A stretch of 64,000 nt of DNA, from the NCBI RefSeq assembly GCF_008728195.1, contig NZ_CP031601.1:80736-144735 (forward strand), written 5' to 3'. The DNA comes from Roseovarius indicus (GTDB lineage: Bacteria; Pseudomonadota; Alphaproteobacteria; Rhodobacterales; Rhodobacteraceae). The notes below the pieces were generated by a model. That model had not been told where the DNA came from and did not search any database. It saw only the letters and a program-made list of their open reading frames with translations. Below, one piece after another: positions 1 through 9,124 of the stretch. Numbering within the stretch: position 1 is the stretch's first letter; each line of letters begins with the position of its first letter. The position numbers and the translations under genes are program-made.

Positions 1-1
1 C

Positions 2-1426
2 ATCGCCCTCTTCCGCATGCGATTTGATGAACGATTTCCGGACGGACTAAAAGTTACCAAGCCTAGGAAGAAGCTCACGGCGTCCTATCGGGCCGCTTCC
101 AGCGAGTTTCAGGGGTCCGCCAACCCAACCTTGGATGGCAAGCCTGTCCCGGATATTTCCGGCCTGCGCAAACCGATCGAGATTGCTCAGGAGCTGGCTG
201 ATGAGGTGATGAACGATCTCGACAAGCTCAGTCGCTTCCTGGGCCGAAATCCTGAAGGTCGCGGAAGCGTTGAAGCGCATGCTTTGATGCCCACTGAACT
301 TTGGGAAGCCTTCCCATCTGAGGAAATGGACCGCTTGAAATTCTGGGCAAGCGATGTCGTCGATCGAGGGGGATTGGTGCCGCTCAAGGAGGTCATCGGA
401 CGGCTGGAGGGAGAAACGAACGAGAAGATCGCGAAAAGGCAGATGACAGGAGCGGCCGACGCGCTCGCGCGCCTGGGTTTTGGTCTCGCACCTGACCCTC
501 GGTTTGCACTCCGATCACCCAAGGCAGAGGAACCTGTTGTGCTGTTTAGCTTGGGTGAACCCATCGAAAGACTGGAGGAAGTTTCCGAAAGCTATCGAAA
601 CGCTCTTATGGAACTAGCGCTCGGGTCCTTCGTCGCCCATGCGGATGGTCGCATCGCGGAGCCCGAGCGCAGGGCGCTGGAGGATCAGGTTTCCGCCGCG
701 GCCCTCAGCGATCAGGAACGCCGCAGGCTGCGTGCAAACCTTGAATGGTTCTTGGCCGTGCCGCCGGACATGACGCTTCTGCGGCGCAAATTGAAGGATG
801 TGGGCCAAGACAGCCAGGCCGCTATGCGGGCAGCACTGGTTGGTGCAGCACATGCCGATGGCATTATTCACTCCGACGAAGTCGCAAGCATCGAGAAAAT
901 CTACAAGGCTTTGGGCCTCGATCCTGCGCTTGCCTACTCGGATCTGCATGCTGGCGAAGTCGCGGATGGTCCTCGCGCTGTTCGTGCCTCGCAACCGGGT
1001 CGCCCGGGCGAAGCGATACCCGATCTTGAAAAAGCCAGCGGACCCAAACTCGACGCGTCGCGGATCGCAGCAATCCGTTCGGACACTGAGCGCGTGTCGT
1101 CCGTCCTCGGTCAGATTTTCGATGTCGAAGAGGAAGAAAGTGGTGCGTCTGGGCCCGCCAGCCAAAGCCAGCTGGCGGGGCTTGACCCGAAACACGGCGC
1201 CCTTGTCCTCGAACTAGTTACTCGGGAGCATTGGTCTGACACAGAGTTCGAGACGATCTGCGCCTCGCATGGCTTGATGGCGTCCGGGGCACTGGAAGTT
1301 GTGAATGAATGGGCTTTTGAGACCTACGATGAAGCGCTTCTCGACGAGTATGATGGATATGACATGTCCCCGGAGATTGCGGAGGCGGTAAAAGAAAAGA
1401 TGAGTGCGGAGGGCAGGGATGTCTAA
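2..1426 (+). CDS. sngA: TerB-domain protein of a Shango-type defence system (5' end outside window)
   Basis: The frame is open to the left edge, so the N-terminus is missing; the first in-window ATG is at 17. Two TerB-like helical repeats carry the motif HADG, at residues about 208-211 and 279-282 counted from that ATG. The last 75 residues are acidic and resemble a TerB-C domain. TerB folds bind metal in tellurite-resistance proteins. The order TerB protein, P-loop ATPase, DEAD/DEAH helicase is the published composition of Shango, in which all three genes act together against phage. The stop overlaps the next gene by 8 nt, which fits one operon. The family call rests on domains plus order; the role is inferred. 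Confidence 0.75.
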   Translation: MALFRMRFDERFPDGLKVTKPRKKLTASYRAASSEFQGSANPTLDGKPVPDISGLRKPIEIAQELADEVMNDLDKLSRFLGRNPEGRGSVEAHALMPTELWEAFPSEEMDRLKFWASDVVDRGGLVPLKEVIGRLEGETNEKIAKRQMTGAADALARLGFGLAPDPRFALRSPKAEEPVVLFSLGEPIERLEEVSESYRNALMELALGSFVAHADGRIAEPERRALEDQVSAAALSDQERRRLRANLEWFLAVPPDMTLLRRKLKDVGQDSQAAMRAALVGAAHADGIIHSDEVASIEKIYKALGLDPALAYSDLHAGEVADGPRAVRASQPGRPGEAIPDLEKASGPKLDASRIAAIRSDTERVSSVLGQIFDVEEEESGASGPASQSQLAGLDPKHGALVLELVTREHWSDTEFETICASHGLMASGALEVVNEWAFETYDEALLDEYDGYDMSPEIAEAVKEKMSAEGRDV

Positions 1427-2726
1427 GTTGAAACCACGTGAACGCGATGCAATCGTACAGGCGCTTCGGGCCGGGGTCGTGCCCAAGCTAGGTTTGCGCC
1501 ATATTCAGGTCGGCCGCGTCCGGGAGATTGAAGAGCTCGTTAAGGACATGGACCGGATATCCGATGGCGGATCGGCAATCAGGTTCATCATCGGGGAATA
1601 CGGATCGGGCAAGACGTTCTTCATGAACCTGATCCGCCTCGTCGCCTTGGAGAAAGGCCTGGTCGTGATGTTCGCGGATCTGGCGCCGGATCGCCGCATT
1701 CACGCGACCGGCGGACAAGCTCGGGGGCTGTATGCGGAGATGGCCCGAAACCTCTCGACGCGGACAAAGCCCGATGGCGGGGCATTGGCCAGCGTGGTGG
1801 AACGGTTTGTCAGCCAGGCTCACCGAGATGCTGAAGAACGGGATTTGCCTACGGGGACCGTCATTCGTGAACGCCTTGGCCACTTTGAAGAACTTACCGG
1901 AGGGTTTGAGTTCGCGGAAGTCATCCGCCGATATTGGGAAGGCCATGAAACCGGTGACGACGAGTTGAAATCCGCAGCCCTGAGGTGGCTGCGCGGTGAA
2001 TTCGCGACACGCACCGACGCGCGCAAAGTACTTGGCGTACGAACAATCATCGACGACTCCAGTGTCTATGACCATCTGAAGCTGATGTCGGCATTCGTGT
2101 GCGAGGCCGGATATAAAGGATTGCTGGTCGGCCTTGACGAGATGGTGAACCTCTACAAGCTCACATCGTCGCAGGCCCGCAATGCAAACTACGAACAGAT
2201 ACTCCGGATCCTGAATGATGTGCTGCAGGGCAGTGCCGAGAACCTCGGATTTCTCATGGGCGGGACCCCGGAGTTTCTGATGAACACCCGTCGAGGGCTC
2301 TACAGCTACGAAGCCCTTCAATCACGTTTGGCCGAGAACACCTTCGCGCGAGACGGATTGGTCGATCTTTCAGGACCGGTTGTCCGGCTCGCCAGCCTGA
2401 CCCCTGAAGACCTTTTCGTACTTCTGGCCAATGTCCGGCGGATCATGCAGGACGACGCCGTTGCTCTGCCGGACGACGCGCTCGAGGCCTTCATGGCGCA
2501 TTGCTCGGACCGGATCGGTGAAGCTTACTTCCGCACGCCGCGCAATACGGTGACCGCATTCGTGAACTTGCTTTCCGTGCTCGAGCAAAACCCCGGTGTC
2601 GAATGGAGTGATCTGATCGAAAAGATCGAAGTCTCCGAAGACCTTGGCGAAGACATGACCGAGGTAGACGAGTCGACTGGTGCCCAAGACCCCGGTGACG
2701 ATGACCTGATCAGCTTCAAGCTCTGA
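1419..2726 (+). CDS. sngB: P-loop ATPase of the Shango-type system (DUF2791/BrxD-like)
   Basis: A 435-residue soluble ATPase. The Walker A motif GEYGSGKT is at residues 59-66 and a Walker B-like strand LVGLDEM at about 236-242. This layout resembles DUF2791 ATPases such as BrxD of BREX. The ATG at 1419 is preferred to the one at 1404 because a GGAGGG ribosome site lies just upstream. The gene overlaps the TerB gene by 8 nt and ends 5 nt before the helicase gene, so the three are almost certainly co-transcribed. The C-terminus is strongly acidic. A BREX origin is possible by family, but no pglX, pglZ or brxC is present here. Confidence 0.78.
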   Translation: MSKLKPRERDAIVQALRAGVVPKLGLRHIQVGRVREIEELVKDMDRISDGGSAIRFIIGEYGSGKTFFMNLIRLVALEKGLVVMFADLAPDRRIHATGGQARGLYAEMARNLSTRTKPDGGALASVVERFVSQAHRDAEERDLPTGTVIRERLGHFEELTGGFEFAEVIRRYWEGHETGDDELKSAALRWLRGEFATRTDARKVLGVRTIIDDSSVYDHLKLMSAFVCEAGYKGLLVGLDEMVNLYKLTSSQARNANYEQILRILNDVLQGSAENLGFLMGGTPEFLMNTRRGLYSYEALQSRLAENTFARDGLVDLSGPVVRLASLTPEDLFVLLANVRRIMQDDAVALPDDALEAFMAHCSDRIGEAYFRTPRNTVTAFVNLLSVLEQNPGVEWSDLIEKIEVSEDLGEDMTEVDESTGAQDPGDDDLISFKL

Positions 2727-2731
2727 CGTCG

Positions 2732-4903
2732 ATGAGCAGTGCGTTCGACAGACTGGCGAGGCCTGTGCAGAAATGGATACGCCAGAAAGGATGGCGCGAA
2801 CTTCGCGACATCCAGGCGCGATCCATCCGGACGATCTGCGAAACTAATGCCGATTTGATCGTTGCGGCTTCAACGGCGGGCGGAAAGACGGAGGCGGCGT
2901 TCCTGCCGTTGATTTCACAGGTGCTTGACGAGCCGTGCGACGGCACCGGCTTCGATCTACTCTACATCGGTCCGCTGAAAGCCTTGATCACGGATCAGGC
3001 CATACGGCTGGAGGGCATCTGCCAGGAAGCAGAGCTTCCGGTTGTTCCCTGGCACGGGGATGTCTCGCAATCGATCAAGACGCGCGCGTTGAAATCTCCA
3101 AAAGGGATCCTGCTGATAACCCCAGAGTCCCTTGAGGCACTTTTCATTCGTCGTGGTTTGGAAATCGCTCGCCTGTTTGGGGCCACGCGGGCAGTCGTGA
3201 TCGACGAATTGCACACGGTTTTAGATAGCGAACGTGGTGTCCAGCTTCGTTCACTGCTCACAAGGCTCGAGCTCGCGACAAAGCGCCCAATCCGTCGGAT
3301 AGGTCTGTCAGCCACTCTCGGCGACATGGACCTCGCCAAGGCCTATCTTCGCCCTGACGCAGCAAGCTCTGTCCAACTGATCGAAGCAGATGGCGGCGAG
3401 GCTGAATTGAGGCTTCAGCTTCGCGGCTACCTCTCAGGCGATGAAGATGGAAACAGTCCATCCGCAACGGATGCCATAGCAGCCCATCTTTTCAAACACC
3501 TTCGAGGCAGCGACAACCTGGTCTTCGCCGGAGCGCGCCAGCGGGTGGAGATCTACGCAGATCGGTTGCGGGAGCTTTGCGAGCGAGAACACCTGCCGCA
3601 GGAATTTTACCCCCACCACGCGAGCCTCTCCCGAGATCACCGTGACTTCGTGGAGCGGCGGCTCAAGGATCCTGCGAAGCCGACGACTGCGATTTGCACG
3701 TCGACCCTCGAGCTTGGAATCGACATCGGTGATGTGACCTGTGTGGCTCAAATAGGGGCACCGTTTAGCGTAGCAGCGTTGCGGCAACGGCTCGGGCGAT
3801 CAGGCCGGCGTGAAGGACAACCTGCTATACTCCGACAGTACGCCGTCGAAGCCAAATTGTCGCCGGAGAGCAGTTTCGTCGATCGACTTCGCTTGGGCCT
3901 GATCAGGTCTATCGCGATGATAGATCTGTTGCTGGAAGGCTGGTGCGAACCGCCAAAACCGCAAGCGCTTCATCTTTCGACGCTCGTTCATCAGATACTG
4001 TCGGTTATCGCGCAGCGCGGCGGTGCGTCCGCAAGCGTGGTCTACAATGTACTGTGCCGCGAGGGTCCTTTTCGAAGGGTCACGACTGAGGTGTTCGCCG
4101 ATGTGTTGCGTGCGATTGGCCATCCTGAAACCGGTTTGATCGAACAGGCCGGAAGTGGGCTGTTACTCTTGGGCCCGACAGGCGAGAAGCTGGTCGAGCA
4201 TTACAGCTTCTATGCGGTGTTCCAGACACCTGAGGAATTCCGTTTGGTTGCAGAGGGGCGGGATCTTGGAACCTTGCCGATCGACAATGTTCTTGCTCCG
4301 GGGATGCTGTTGATTTTTTCCGGGCGGCGTTGGGTTGTTCAAGAAATTCATGATCGTGAAAAGGTCATAATCGTCAAACCCGCGAAGGCTGGTGTGCCTC
4401 CAGTCTTCGGCGGCGATGCAGGCGACATTTATGACAAGGTGATAGACCGAATGTTCAGTGTGCTCGAGCGGGGTATCAGTCCACCCTACATGGAGGCCGT
4501 TTCGCTAGAGATGCTAGACGAAGCGCGCGCCCACTATGAGCAACTCGGGTTCCGGACCAAGAATATCTACAGTTTTGGCGAACGTACATCGATCATCGCA
4601 ACGCGGGTCGGAACGGTGAAGACGTCAACTCTCGCGCTCGCACTAAGAAGTAAGGGGTTCTTGGTTGAACAGCATGACGGGTTTCTGCTGGTGGAGGCAG
4701 GGGACGAAACCCCCGATCTTCAAACGGCACTAACGCATATTCGATCTGGCGAACCTGTCGATCTGTTCGCGGGAGCAGGGAACTTCGTGTCGGAGAAGTT
4801 TCATCCGTACCTGTCGAAGCCGCTCTTGGAGTTGGATGCAGCCAGTTCGAAGCTTGTTCCTCAAATTCTTCCAACGTTGGTTGAAAGGATCATTCAGGCA
4901 TGA
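2732..4903 (+). CDS. sngC: DEAD/DEAH-box helicase of the Shango-type system (Lhr-like)
   Basis: A 723-residue superfamily 2 helicase. Walker A is ASTAGGKT at residues 46-53, the DExH box is DELH at 158-161, motif III is SAT at 193-195, and motif VI (QRLGRSGRR) is near residue 350. The arrangement resembles Lhr and BrxHI helicases, which unwind nucleic acid using ATP. A C-terminal region of some 250 residues has no obvious match. It starts 5 nt after the ATPase gene. In Shango the helicase is one of three essential components. The helicase assignment is firm; the assignment to Shango depends on the two neighbours. Confidence 0.8.
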   Translation: MSSAFDRLARPVQKWIRQKGWRELRDIQARSIRTICETNADLIVAASTAGGKTEAAFLPLISQVLDEPCDGTGFDLLYIGPLKALITDQAIRLEGICQEAELPVVPWHGDVSQSIKTRALKSPKGILLITPESLEALFIRRGLEIARLFGATRAVVIDELHTVLDSERGVQLRSLLTRLELATKRPIRRIGLSATLGDMDLAKAYLRPDAASSVQLIEADGGEAELRLQLRGYLSGDEDGNSPSATDAIAAHLFKHLRGSDNLVFAGARQRVEIYADRLRELCEREHLPQEFYPHHASLSRDHRDFVERRLKDPAKPTTAICTSTLELGIDIGDVTCVAQIGAPFSVAALRQRLGRSGRREGQPAILRQYAVEAKLSPESSFVDRLRLGLIRSIAMIDLLLEGWCEPPKPQALHLSTLVHQILSVIAQRGGASASVVYNVLCREGPFRRVTTEVFADVLRAIGHPETGLIEQAGSGLLLLGPTGEKLVEHYSFYAVFQTPEEFRLVAEGRDLGTLPIDNVLAPGMLLIFSGRRWVVQEIHDREKVIIVKPAKAGVPPVFGGDAGDIYDKVIDRMFSVLERGISPPYMEAVSLEMLDEARAHYEQLGFRTKNIYSFGERTSIIATRVGTVKTSTLALALRSKGFLVEQHDGFLLVEAGDETPDLQTALTHIRSGEPVDLFAGAGNFVSEKFHPYLSKPLLELDAASSKLVPQILPTLVERIIQA

Positions 4904-4998
4904 GCGGTGGGAAGCAGAGGTTGTTTCCTTGCACGTTCTGAACCGCTAGGGCCAAATGCAATGGCCTTTGGGGGCGCAGAGATCATTTGGAGAATGTC

Positions 4999-7206
4999 GT
5001 GGCCGATAAGCTGAACATAAATCTAAGATATTGTTATGGAATTGGAAAACTTGAGTCAGAGCTGGAGTTTAAGCACAAAGGCTACGCGATCTACGCTCCG
5101 AACGGTGTTATGAAAACATCGTTTGCGAAGACAATGATGGACCTTTCGGAAGGCAATTCGCCGAAGGACCTGCACTTCCCGGATCGCGAACCTACTTGTG
5201 AGATCACCCTGAATGGCGAAGCCATTAAGAAAGAGGAAATTTTCGTCGTTAAATCCTACGATGACAAATTCTCTTCAAGTCAGGTGTCCACTCTTCTTGC
5301 GAACGCCGAACTCAGAACGAAGTACGAAAAAATCCATCAGTCGATTGGCGAAGCAAAAAAGGCTTTGGACAAAGCTCTCAGGAACGCTGCGGGGTTTGGA
5401 GAGAGATCACGGGAGAACTTAGACCCGATTATCGAGGATGTGTTCGGCGGCAGCTATTATGAGGCACTTTCTGCGATTGAGGACGAGCTCAACGAACTTC
5501 ATCAATCGGACCTCGGCAAAGCCGACTACAGAATCCTGTACGACCCAAAAGTTCAGCAATTCCTTGCCAGCGAAGATGTGGCGGCTGCGGTCGAGGACTT
5601 TGCGCAAAAGTATGACGAGATAACCGAACAATCGCCAATCCTTCGAAGGGATTTTCAGTATCACAATGTCGCCCAGGTTCAGCAGCAACTCGAAGCGAAC
5701 AACTTTTTTAACGCTGGACATAGCATCAGCTTGGCGGATGAAAACACGGATCAGAAGGAAGAGGTTTCATCGGACCAATCTCTTCGCGAGCGCATCGAAG
5801 AGGAGAAGCTTCGCGTCTTGAACGATGAGGCGGTGGCGAAGAAATTCGACACATTCAATTCAAAGCTCAAAAATAAGGAGCTGCAGGCTTTCCGAGACTA
5901 TATCACAGATAATAAACACCTTCTGCCTATGCTAAACGAACCGAAAGGCCTGAAACGTGACCTTTGGATGCAATATCTTCGGGCTGCACTTGATGAGTAC
6001 AAAGCGCTGGTATCCGAGTATCGAACTGGTCAAAGTGCTCTCGCTGAAATCATCGCAGACGCGGACAGCAGCAGAGGTGATTGGGATGCTGTAGTGGCAG
6101 ATTTCAATCGTCGCTTTCTCTACCTGCCATTTGAACTTTCCGTTGAGAATAAGGCCGATGCGATCCTCAAAGGAAGTGCTCCTTCGATTGCTTTTATCAT
6201 CAAAGATGCAGGTGATGAGAGGCGTTATGCTTCATCCGAAAAGCAAGAACTGCTCCGAGCGCTAAGCACAGGTGAAAGCCGCGCGCTGTACATACTTGAT
6301 ATTATGTATGAGGTATTCGTGCGATGGAAGAACCGCACCAAGACCCTCTTTGTCTTTGACGACATTTCTGACTCGTTTGACTACAAGAACAAGTTCGCGA
6401 TCATCGACTTCTTGGAGGATGTAACCAAGGTCGAAGACACCAATTTCCTTGCCATCGTCCTGACTCACAACTTTGATTTCCTTCGAACAGTTTCAAACAG
6501 AGATATCTGTCCAGCACATCAGTGTCGGCTGGCGTTTCGATCTGATGATGGGATCAAGTTTGAGCCATTCGAGCGGACGGATATCCAGAGTCCGTTTCGT
6601 AAGTGGCAGGGCAGATTGGCGGAACCGTCCGTTCTAATTGCCTATATCCCGTTCTTACGTAATTTGATCGAGTACACGCTTGGCCCAAAAGATGCCGATG
6701 GGAATCCTAATGCTGACTACCTTCAGCTTACCAGGATGCTCCACTACAAAGATGAAACTGAAGCCCTCACCATTGAGGACTACAAGGCTGTATTCGAACG
6801 CCATTTGAGCGGGTGTACTTTCCCTGATGTTGATCTGACGCAGCCAATTATTGAGCATCTTTTCGCCACGGCCGATGAGTGTGAAAAAGTTGCCGATGGC
6901 ATCAATCTTGAGCACAAGATCGCTCTGTCAATCGCGATCAGAATGCGAGCCGAGCGATACATGGTCGCGAAGATCCGTTCTGCGCAGGAAGAATTTGATG
7001 TTTCGAATAAGCAGACGGGGAAGATTTTTCAAAAATTCAAAGACTTGTTCAATAATGAAGCCGAAAAAATAGGCCTTCTACGCCGCGTTAATCTAATCAC
7101 GCCAGCGAATATACATCTCAATTCCTTTATGTATGAGCCAATCTTAGACATGGGCATGGCCGAGTTGGTGACGTTGTACCAGAACGTAAAGTCAGATTTG
7201 AACTAG
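4999..7206 (+). CDS. AAA_13-like (SMC/ABC-type) ATPase, candidate defence protein
   Basis: A protein of about 735 residues. The N-terminal P-loop reads APNGVMKTSF (residues about 33-42), where the glycine before the lysine of GxxGxGKT is replaced by Met. A middle region rich in Glu, Lys and Arg probably forms a coiled coil. A Walker B-like strand, TLFVFDDISDSFD, is near residue 450 and an ABC-type H-loop, LTHNFDF, near 488. ATPases of this kind occur in PrrC/RloC anticodon nucleases and other phage-exclusion proteins. The GTG at 4999 is chosen because GGAG lies 6 nt upstream; a TTG at 4987 is the alternative. Base composition is clearly more AT-rich than the neighbours, which suggests separate acquisition. 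The effector activity is not recognised. Confidence 0.65.
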   Translation: MADKLNINLRYCYGIGKLESELEFKHKGYAIYAPNGVMKTSFAKTMMDLSEGNSPKDLHFPDREPTCEITLNGEAIKKEEIFVVKSYDDKFSSSQVSTLLANAELRTKYEKIHQSIGEAKKALDKALRNAAGFGERSRENLDPIIEDVFGGSYYEALSAIEDELNELHQSDLGKADYRILYDPKVQQFLASEDVAAAVEDFAQKYDEITEQSPILRRDFQYHNVAQVQQQLEANNFFNAGHSISLADENTDQKEEVSSDQSLRERIEEEKLRVLNDEAVAKKFDTFNSKLKNKELQAFRDYITDNKHLLPMLNEPKGLKRDLWMQYLRAALDEYKALVSEYRTGQSALAEIIADADSSRGDWDAVVADFNRRFLYLPFELSVENKADAILKGSAPSIAFIIKDAGDERRYASSEKQELLRALSTGESRALYILDIMYEVFVRWKNRTKTLFVFDDISDSFDYKNKFAIIDFLEDVTKVEDTNFLAIVLTHNFDFLRTVSNRDICPAHQCRLAFRSDDGIKFEPFERTDIQSPFRKWQGRLAEPSVLIAYIPFLRNLIEYTLGPKDADGNPNADYLQLTRMLHYKDETEALTIEDYKAVFERHLSGCTFPDVDLTQPIIEHLFATADECEKVADGINLEHKIALSIAIRMRAERYMVAKIRSAQEEFDVSNKQTGKIFQKFKDLFNNEAEKIGLLRRVNLITPANIHLNSFMYEPILDMGMAELVTLYQNVKSDLN

Positions 7207-7208
7207 GC

Positions 7209-7910
7209 GTGATCGGAATGCGTTTTGCACTTTTGAATGGTCAACGAGTTGAGGCGACGCCTGGTGCCTTGGGCAACTGCCCAGGCTGCAATGCCGCCAT
7301 GCTAGCTCGATGCGGGACCAAGAAGGTCTGGCATTGGGCGCACAAAGGCCGCCGCCATTGTGATCATTGGTGGGAAAACGAAACCGAGTGGCATCGCGAC
7401 TGGAAGAACCGGTTTCTCACCGACTGGCAAGAGGTGCCAGCTCGCGATGAAACTGGCGAGCTTCATATTGCGGATATCAAAACACCCTATGGCCTTGTGA
7501 TCGAGTTCCAGCACTCTGCTATCAAGTCGGCTGAGGTAAGAAAGCGCACAGATTTCTACGGTCAAGTAATTTGGATTATCGATGGAACCCGCCGCCCAAC
7601 TGATCTGATCCAATATGAACGTATGTTGTCAGAAAACTATCCGGAACGGTTCGACGGCGTTGATATCTACACCGTTTATTGCGAGGAAACACGGCTTCTC
7701 AAAGAATGGGGATCATTGGGCAAGATCGTCGGATTTGACTTTGGCGGCGAAAATCTATGCTTGCTGACAGCCGCACAAGGCAGAAGCCGTTATCTCTTCG
7801 ACTTCCCAAAGGTGGAGTTCGCTAGGTTGATTAGTGAAGGGAGGCCGCTACCAGTGGTTCAGTTCGCAGAACCCACCCAGCGTGGCTATCGAAGGCGTAG
7901 AAGATTCTAA
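7209..7910 (+). CDS. CoiA-like nuclease (PD-(D/E)XK type) with zinc ribbon
   Basis: A 233-residue protein. An N-terminal CPGC...C cluster (residues 24-35) is followed by WHWAH (41-45) and EWHRDWK (60-66). The likely nuclease core is AD89IK followed by E99FQHS, a D...ExQ pattern typical of restriction-like folds. This is the architecture of competence protein CoiA-like nucleases, which are also found in mobile and defence loci. The start is GTG 7209 or ATG 7218. It begins 2 nt after the ATPase gene, so the two are probably translated from one message and may work as an ATPase-nuclease pair. That pairing is inferred from position only. Confidence 0.7.
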   Translation: MIGMRFALLNGQRVEATPGALGNCPGCNAAMLARCGTKKVWHWAHKGRRHCDHWWENETEWHRDWKNRFLTDWQEVPARDETGELHIADIKTPYGLVIEFQHSAIKSAEVRKRTDFYGQVIWIIDGTRRPTDLIQYERMLSENYPERFDGVDIYTVYCEETRLLKEWGSLGKIVGFDFGGENLCLLTAAQGRSRYLFDFPKVEFARLISEGRPLPVVQFAEPTQRGYRRRRRF

Positions 7911-7980
7911 TAAACTTCAGGTCGCAAACAGTCGTTTTTGGCGGCTATCCTGGTCTACTAAAATCAACGCTTTGGATATG

Positions 7981-8023
7981 AAAACCGCCCGTAGAAGTTC
8001 ACCAGCAGTACCTTTGCGGTTTT
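7981..8023. terminator. Inverted repeat between convergent genes, possible terminator
   Basis: AAAACCGC (7981-7988) and GCGGTTTT (8016-8023) form a perfect 8-bp inverted repeat between the convergent nuclease gene and the secretion operon. A T-run follows on the plus strand. The loop is long (27 nt), so the call is weak. Confidence 0.25.
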
Positions 8024-8047
8024 TGGAGGGTTGTTTTCATTAGCCCG

Positions 8048-9124
8048 TCACCGTCGCCCCAACCTTCCAAGCCTAGCCAGTTGCGTCAGCATCTGGGACC
8101 CGACCCCCGATGATCCTGCGCCGCTTGCCTGACCCGTCTGTCCCATGCCTTGTCGCACAGGCATCTGCTGTACCCCAAAAAACTGCCGAGCCCTGAGGGC
8201 TGCGTATTCCGCACCACTGGCGCCACCGATCAGGTAGCGGTTGTAGGCCTGCTGGCTGCCCATTGCGGCACGGGTGAAGCTGTAGCCGCCACCGAGACCG
8301 CCGGAGAGGGCGGGCATCATGATGTTGCCGGAGATTGCGCGGACGATGAAGGGTGTTGCGATGATGAATCCCTTGGCCATGAGCACCATCATGAAGAAGG
8401 GGATGAGCGCACCGATGTTTGAGGCCCCTTCGGGGTCGCCTAGTTCGCCGATGAGGGCTGAGGAGACCCCTGTGATCGTTGCGAACACGCCTGCGACGAC
8501 AATGGGGTAGAGCGCAAAGGAAATCAGCGCCGACAGCCAGCGCGCGAAATAGTCCTTGGTCACCTCGAACAGCGTCAGGAAAATCATCACCGGGGCGATC
8601 CCGATCAGGAGCGCGATCATCAGCCGAGAGGCTACCAAGATGAAGGCGGCCAGCCCGCCGAGGATCGAGAGCAGAAGCACACCGACGATGTCCAGCATGG
8701 CACCGGCCATCCAGTTCAGCTCGGAACCGGCGGCGTTCAGGTAATCGCCGAGTTCCGAGATCAGCCGATCGAACTCTTCCGCGAAAGTACCGGAGGGCCC
8801 GGGGCTGCCGCCCCCGACCGAAGCGACAAGTGCGCCGGCGATGCTGTCGATCCCGGCAAGGATGGCGGAAGACAGCGCGTTGAACTGAACCCAATTGGTC
8901 GCAAATATCCCGATGAGCCCGATCTTGACTGCAAGCCAAAAAGCCGTGCGCCCGTCCATCGCCTTGTACTGGTAGATCATGTTCAGGAAGACGAGGATCA
9001 CCACCAGCGTTGTTCCCAGCACCAGCAGCGTGCCAACCGTCGCCGCGACAGATCCGAACTGGGTTTCGGCGGCGGTATCGAGGTAGCCCTGTGAGGTTTC
9101 AACGAAATAGGTGACGACGCTCAT
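8048..9124 (-). CDS. virB6: Type IV secretion inner-membrane channel protein VirB6/TrbL
   Basis: A 358-residue polytopic membrane protein with several long hydrophobic segments and a glycine-rich, serine-rich tail. Family: VirB6/TrbL, an inner-membrane component through which substrate passes in type IV secretion. It is the last gene of the secretion operon. It starts 13 nt after the stop of the exported small protein gene upstream, which supports co-transcription. The hydrophobic pattern and position make the call good even though VirB6 proteins are poorly conserved. Confidence 0.85.
   Translation of the reverse strand: MSVVTYFVETSQGYLDTAAETQFGSVAATVGTLLVLGTTLVVILVFLNMIYQYKAMDGRTAFWLAVKIGLIGIFATNWVQFNALSSAILAGIDSIAGALVASVGGGSPGPSGTFAEEFDRLISELGDYLNAAGSELNWMAGAMLDIVGVLLLSILGGLAAFILVASRLMIALLIGIAPVMIFLTLFEVTKDYFARWLSALISFALYPIVVAGVFATITGVSSALIGELGDPEGASNIGALIPFFMMVLMAKGFIIATPFIVRAISGNIMMPALSGGLGGGYSFTRAAMGSQQAYNRYLIGGASGAEYAALRARQFFGVQQMPVRQGMGQTGQASGAGSSGVGSQMLTQLARLGRLGRR

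Follow-up and report, generated by a model that had tools for sequence, protein, structure and literature searches.

The window analysed here, a 64,000-nt stretch of Roseovarius indicus (positions 80,736 to 144,735 of contig NZ_CP031601.1, which is 144,735 nt long), begins with the defence system Shango, directly followed on the same strand by genes for an ATPase and a CoiA-like nuclease. Our preferred reading, to which we give a probability of about 0.5, is that the latter two genes form a cassette of self-sufficient parts and not a widespread two-gene system: the ATPase, PDC-S46, would act alone in the manner of PrrC and RloC, and CoiA would be separate from it. A sequence-only reading of this DNA had recognized the three linked Shango genes and the two open reading frames (ORFs) directly downstream, all of which were confirmed, with SngA, SngB and SngC adjacent and in order across positions 1-4903 (PADLOC; Table 1). 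It had also taken the ATPase and the nuclease for a two-gene system without a name, and here it failed: the two genes are rarely adjacent elsewhere, each also occurs alone and the ATPase is already catalogued singly, so that a general two-gene ATPase-nuclease system is unsupported.

Shango is a system separate from PDC-S46 and CoiA. The pair block has a GC content of 48.5%, compared with 57.7% for Shango, as had been noticed from the sequence, and 62.2% for the type IV secretion system (T4SS) genes. In another genome of the same family (G161), the pair is continuous over the equivalent of 4928-7937, with an ArdC-like region directly upstream instead of Shango and no SngC match in that genome at E <= 1e-100, which bears out the earlier suggestion that the pair is able to move independently of Shango. 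That the cassette is a unit of its own, open to exchange, is seen most clearly in genome G001, in which the slot holds WYL-SbcCD-Shango and then Thoeris in the place of the cassette (ThsA at 8e-190 and two ThsB by PADLOC, with a third TIR protein by Pfam); DNA homology between the window and G001 breaks off at 4719, within the 3' end of sngC, and is picked up again at 8046. The boundary between the two genes is visible in blastn searches with window positions 4000-9000. Homology confined to the ATPase runs up to the stop codon in Brucella grignonensis (4947-7206); it covers 4923-7159 in a viral contig and 4988-7190 in genome G228 (L187). Homology confined to CoiA spans 7216-7913 in Yoonia, 7216-7915 in R. 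litoralis and 7218-7900 in R. xanthinilyticus. Both genes have been under purifying selection since the window and G161 copies parted, with nonsynonymous (dN) and synonymous (dS) divergences of 0.058 and 0.901 for the ATPase (ratio 0.065; 735 codons) and 0.038 and 0.606 for CoiA (ratio 0.063; 230 codons). As a separate observation, positions 58-1487 of the G161 locus (L186) share 90% DNA identity with the ArdC-type region (ArdcN plus zincin) carried by R. litoralis pROLI18.

The locus is a slot for defence cargo on a conjugative roseobacter plasmid, flanked by virD4 and virB6: virD4 lies beyond the WYL gene upstream, and virB6 with the rest of the T4SS lies downstream on the other strand. The virB6 side of the window was matched by 113 plasmid records. 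Six of these plasmids were compared with the window besides those of Sulfitobacter THAF37 and Sagittula P11; in the six, homology sets in at the 3' end of virB6 (8045), and they differ in cargo. Defence-type cargo is present in three of the six, because pSMR1-7 carries PDC-S06, a Thioclava plasmid carries a PDC-S73 match together with PDC-S06, and pSD25 carries CBASS; the remaining three hold metabolic or other genes. The PDC-S06 protein of pSMR1-7 is RloC-like by eye and matches the PADLOC PrrC model at 8.8e-13. Thus, the slot can contain Shango accompanied either by PDC-S46-CoiA or by Thoeris, or else RloC-like PDC-S06 or CBASS, making it a useful place to seek further systems.

How often the ATPase and CoiA occur together was counted inside and outside Shango loci, a check set beforehand, and the outcome went against the pair. 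A genome search with the ATPase matched at least 592 stretches, of which 280 were confirmed and the best 80 kept. A confident CoiA stands behind the ATPase in three of these 80 loci (L052, L053 and L061), all from one sequence cluster, and nine loci are hard to judge, with less than 700 nt behind the ATPase (L054, L057, L058, L059, L062, L066, L067, L073 and L095). One of the nine, from a metagenome-assembled genome (MAG) with an ATPase at 92% (L054, 3201-3515), retains the first few CoiA codons before its sequence departs, which may reflect insertion, deletion or misassembly alike. In another locus (L084), a 27.5-bit CoiA match lies nearly 7 kb from the ATPase. In an Omnitrophota MAG (L119, 8932-12087), a PDC-S46 homologue is followed at 12 nt by a weak CoiA-like gene (22.4 bits with a purpose-built profile; Pfam CoiA_N 2.7e-7), a possible second, independent pairing. 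At the 15 Shango loci other than the window's, the flanking sequence retrieved, in some cases cut off by a contig end, contained neither gene.

Other collections gave a similar picture. By tblastn against plasmids, the ATPase was found in 26 records and CoiA in 43 (40 listed), and among those listed both occur in two, Sulfitobacter THAF37 and Sagittula P11. Across 295 genomes of the family (E <= 1e-10), CoiA is present in five and the ATPase in nine, a count that includes partial pieces of 66 residues (G029) and 318 residues (G109); both are present, and adjacent, in the window's own genome (G000) and in G161. In a sample of 385 genomes of the class, CoiA was detected in three (E <= 1e-15) and the ATPase in four (E <= 1e-40), and both solely in the window's genome. 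None of the 35 CoiA loci on viral contigs has the ATPase in its flanks, which reach at most 6 kb and in some cases stop at a contig end, and the single viral ATPase locus is without CoiA. As a conserved system, the pair was therefore rejected, with counts of three (and a further weak case) among 80 genome loci, two of 26 ATPase plasmids and none of the 35 viral CoiA loci. Outside the window, confident pairs amount to six loci (L052, L053, L061, L004, L005 and L186 of G161), with ATPases 89-100% identical to that of the window; together with the window they form one cluster, and L052, Roseovarius pacificus DSM 29589, whose ATPase protein is identical, probably comes from the window's own strain or one almost identical to it. 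In all but L186, the pair stands behind Shango and is followed by virB6, with insertion sequence (IS) elements between in L005. ATPases at 76-83% identity (L042, L055 and L056/L187) have no CoiA, and CoiA genes at 80-91% identity (tblastn) on other Rhodobacterales plasmids have no ATPase (L006, L007 and L008).

Residues 7-736 of the 739-residue ATPase match positions 2-717 of the 719-position PADLOC profile PDC-S46 (E 1e-240). The protein is thus already catalogued as a single-gene phage defence candidate, and the PADLOC model does not include CoiA. The PADLOC entry carries no description, and an exact-term search of the open-access literature found no paper naming PDC-S46. Of the earlier label "AAA_13-like ATPase," the ATPase part stands; AAA_13 gave a local sub-threshold Pfam match (20.2 versus 36 bits, residues 415-505) and was set aside as the family. 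The protein also matches a PHROGs family of unknown function (E 2.1e-143); no solved structure matched it convincingly by sequence (E <= 1), an alpha-actinin row at E 0.19 being taken as chance. Its ABC head has the SMC/Rad50 head fold, with the signature, Walker B and H-loop as conserved alignment columns, and matches SMC, Rad50 and RecF as well as PtuA of Septu and retrons; in the VIA comparison, the matched part of the ATPase model was mostly residues 5-534. PDC-S46 has relatives among bacteria as well as in archaeal genomes (Methanohalophilus and a Micrarchaeota MAG).

The C-terminal region of PDC-S46 carries the near-invariant motif R-N-x2-E-x(15-23)-H-x-K. Among 115 sequences, R, N and H are present in all, K in 114 and E in 112, and the motif R stands 20-23 residues past the F537 column. 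In the structure model this region is all-helical, with R558 and E562 on one helix. In the RloC-like control set, all 25 sequences contain R-x3-E-x38-H, following a PF that hhalign aligns with PF537. Excerpts of PMC2610378 give the triads R320-E324-H356 for PrrC and R-X3-E-X36-52-H for RloC, with alanine mutants inactive in RloC, and passages of PMC3710099 describe HEPN RNases as all-helical and as fused to ABC ATPases in PrrC and RloC, often within restriction-modification (R-M) operons. Judging from these sequence features, PDC-S46 probably carries its own nuclease-like domain and appears to work like PrrC and RloC, a likeness in mode of action and not a demonstrated membership of that group. 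That the protein as a whole is a self-contained, ATP-regulated nuclease acting in the PrrC/RloC manner is a tentative proposal by analogy, which we place somewhat below even odds.

The genes around PDC-S46 elsewhere were tallied for 82 loci (four duplicates dropped). Of 150 nearest neighbours, seven were removed by hand, namely three ATPase pieces (L071, L080 and L120) and four others (L081, L095, L096 and L118), leaving 143 in sets of 69 and 74, for which Pfam matches at E <= 1e-5 were counted over the first 25 families per set. Type I, II and III R-M proteins are among them: ResIII (4), N6_N4_Mtase (3), N6_Mtase (2), HSDR_N (2), Mrr_cat (2) and RE_endonuc (1) in the set of 69, and Methylase_S (3), DNA_methylase (2), N6_N4_Mtase (2), RE_endonuc (2) and N6_Mtase (1) in the set of 74.

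Several results weigh against a PrrC/RloC-like mechanism. Between E and H, PDC-S46 has 15-23 residues, fewer than PrrC (31) or RloC (36-52). The hhalign comparison with the RloC-like set aligned the ATPase-head motifs only (34% probability, E 4e-4), the C-terminal pieces of the two sets gave no match (0.0-0.3% probability), and the PADLOC PrrC model did not match PDC-S46 at E <= 0.01. The zinc hook CxxC in the arm is present in none of 115 PDC-S46 sequences versus 25 of 25 RloC-like ones, and the usual HEPN motif Rx4-6H occurs past residue 530 in just 39 of 115 and is not conserved. The invariant C-terminal residues may serve ATPase coupling instead of cleavage, and the R-M neighbours, which fit a defence role for PDC-S46, are raw counts, uncorrected for background. 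C-terminal homology to RloC was accordingly dropped as a claim, no profile comparison being positive. Because profile homology is unconfirmed, the zinc hook absent and Rx4-6H not conserved, the nuclease mechanism counts as inferred.

In the explanation that we favor, the slot comprises WYL, SbcD, SbcC and Shango, with the exchangeable PDC-S46-CoiA cassette behind Shango. The ABC-ATPase head of PDC-S46 would sense an infection signal, which could be DNA ends, a nucleotide change or the failure of a partnering restriction or helicase system; the ATP cycle would then free the C-terminal RNase-like active site (R558, E562 and H586), which, through a presumed RNA target, would stop translation in the infected cell. 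CoiA would be an autonomous PD-(D/E)XK DNase whose N-terminus probably binds zinc; it would have come to lie beside PDC-S46 by chance and would now be transferred, and perhaps transcribed, together with it.

The CoiA protein passes both Pfam cut-offs narrowly (CoiA_N, 29.1 versus 26.3 bits; CoiA_nuc, 21.1 versus 20.3 bits), and the core residues D89, E99 and Q101 are kept in 36 of 36 sequences, so that the call of a CoiA-like nuclease with plausible, conserved catalytic residues withstood scrutiny. The PD-EXQ variant has been published for CoiA, according to excerpts of PMC1189080. The structure model has a mean predicted local distance difference test score (pLDDT) of 84.6, and the Cys/His cluster is likely a zinc-binding site, as predicted from the residues. 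CoiA matched no PADLOC model at E <= 0.01 and no PHROGs family, nor did any solved structure match it by sequence at E <= 1. In Sagittula P11 (L005, 14569-17706), an IS66 element lies inside CoiA, its two matching pieces overlapping by 8 window bases, and the ATPase ORF is intact.

If PDC-S46 and CoiA were a true two-component system, the ATPase would sense infection and license the CoiA DNase. Such coupling would account for the close spacing of the two genes on one strand (8-11 nt, measured to the conserved ATG of CoiA, in the window and in six further loci), for the occurrence of the block without Shango, for the dN/dS of about 0.06 in both genes and for the distant adjacency in the Omnitrophota MAG; another CoiA, in L188, lies 17 nt behind an OLD/AriA-like ATPase. 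We consider it improbable, given the ATPases at 76-83% identity that lack CoiA, the restriction of confident CoiA to one cluster among the best genome loci, the absence of the ATPase from the flanks of all 35 viral CoiA loci, the disruption of CoiA beside an intact ATPase in Sagittula P11, and L054, where a few CoiA codons are all that is kept. More improbable still is a young dual-attack unit, in which an ABC-ATPase RNase distinct from PrrC/RloC, bearing a new C-terminal nuclease R-N-x2-E...H-x-K without a zinc hook, would be coupled to the CoiA DNase and would have been assembled at least twice, in roseobacter plasmids and in an Omnitrophota lineage. In a less remote, still unlikely reading, PDC-S46 would have no nuclease activity and would be an ATPase switch for an effector whose gene lies elsewhere, like PtuA in Septu and retrons: the head also matches PtuA, and the C-terminal region has neither a recognized nuclease profile nor a conserved Rx4-6H, but no constant partner emerged, the commonest Pfam family among the 143 neighbours reaching 4 of 69 and 3 of 74, and the R, H and K of the C-terminal region are invariant.

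The remaining alternative concerns CoiA, which might serve plasmid or DNA-uptake functions with nothing to do with defence; we hold this about as unlikely as the switch. CoiA is often solitary on plasmids, with tra genes as neighbours (L050) or inside an integron-like array rich in DUF3265 (L051), and stretches with CoiA carry a resolvase and ArdC in L007 and L186. The family was named for competence, as excerpts of PMC1189080 have it. Against this, a CoiA-domain protein is part of one of 21 systems that, according to PMC9519451, gave phage defence in E. coli, and some relatives abut defence-type genes, namely a multiubiquitin/ThiF operon (L009), the OLD-like ATPase of L188 and a PtuA-like ATPase (L048).

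Table 1. Features at the left end of the window.
Feature	Position	Strand	Basis
SngA (Shango TerB protein), 3' part	1..1426	+	PADLOC SngA 1.4e-62; Pfam TerB, TerB_C
SngB (Shango BrxC/D-type ATPase)	1419..2726	+	PADLOC SngB 8.7e-176, scored on ORF 1404-2726
SngC (Shango DEAD/DEAH helicase)	2732..4903	+	PADLOC SngC 1.4e-269
PDC-S46-CoiA cassette	4928..7937	.	blastn block common to G161 C1 (L186), 84.8% DNA identity
PDC-S46: SMC/Rad50-type ABC ATPase head, helical arm, helical C-terminal region	4999..7206	+	ORF listed from 4987
Candidate nuclease motif of PDC-S46, R558-N559-x2-E562-x23-H586-x-K588	6658..6750	+	numbering from 4987; 115-sequence conservation
CoiA-like nuclease, 230 aa	7218..7910	+	ORF listed from GTG 7209; Pfam CoiA_N + CoiA_nuc
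CoiA Cys/His cluster C24, C27, C35, H45, C51 (predicted zinc site)	7278..7361	+	numbering from 7209; each 36/36
CoiA PD-(D/E)XK core D89...E99-x-Q101 (PD-EXQ variant)	7473..7511	+	D, E, Q each 36/36
virB6 of plasmid T4SS, right border of cargo slot, outside cassette	8048..9124	-	homology start 8045/8046

The ORFs 17-1426, 1404-2726, 2732-4903, 4987-7206 and 7209-7910 were confirmed in place and strand. The start of SngB was reset to ATG 1419 after the annotated orthologue in L004. There, the orthologue of the ATPase begins 12 bases later than the listed ORF, at the equivalent of GTG 4999, and that of CoiA 9 bases later, at the equivalent of ATG 7218. With these later starts, about 11 nt separate the two genes instead of the 2 nt read from the ORFs. 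Promoter and terminator scans gave counts near or below the shuffled level (4 versus 3.2 and 1 versus 4.0, respectively). A repeat scan of 4700-8200 returned an imperfect 17-nt direct repeat (82%; 4701-4717 and 8095-8111) that flanks the cassette near the G001 homology breaks and may be due to chance, as two-copy matches of such kind often are.

The SngA match covers profile positions 193-526 of 528 only, because the gene starts about 1.1 kb 5' of the window; the complete ORF is found in L003 (13577-16162). Upstream of Shango, L003 8133-13218 contains SbcD-like and SbcC-like genes in the same direction, preceded by a divergent WYL-domain gene. This trio also stands beside Shango in G001, in the same order, and in G261, at 43-58% identity and in the other orientation. 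SngC is present at 16 loci in 14 of the 295 family genomes. The genome of the window has three Shango loci (C1, C2 and C4), with SngC 89-100% identical to that of the window, and at C2 SngA matches in two pieces, which suggests a gene break. In L191 (10722-16759) and L202, Shango is directly followed by AddAB-like genes, a PD-(D/E)XK protein and a UvrD-type helicase with a PD-(D/E)XK domain, which are 93-94% alike between the two loci.

Collectively, the apparent two-gene system resolves into two separate, testable units, and the catalogued candidate PDC-S46 gains a concrete catalytic hypothesis of three residues. All three Shango genes are present here, and the locus differs from Shango as known by WYL-SbcD-SbcC upstream and the cassette downstream. 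PARIS, Gabija and Septu likewise place an ATPase gene beside a nuclease gene, but a conserved pairing of PDC-S46 with CoiA was not found. With CoiA-family nucleases, the protein described here shares CoiA_N, CoiA_nuc and the PD-EXQ core, the present copy being plasmid-borne. The likeness of PDC-S46 to PrrC and RloC extends to the ABC ATPase head, the helical C-terminal region, an R-x3-E...H motif, though one of shorter E-H spacing, and R-M genes among its neighbours.

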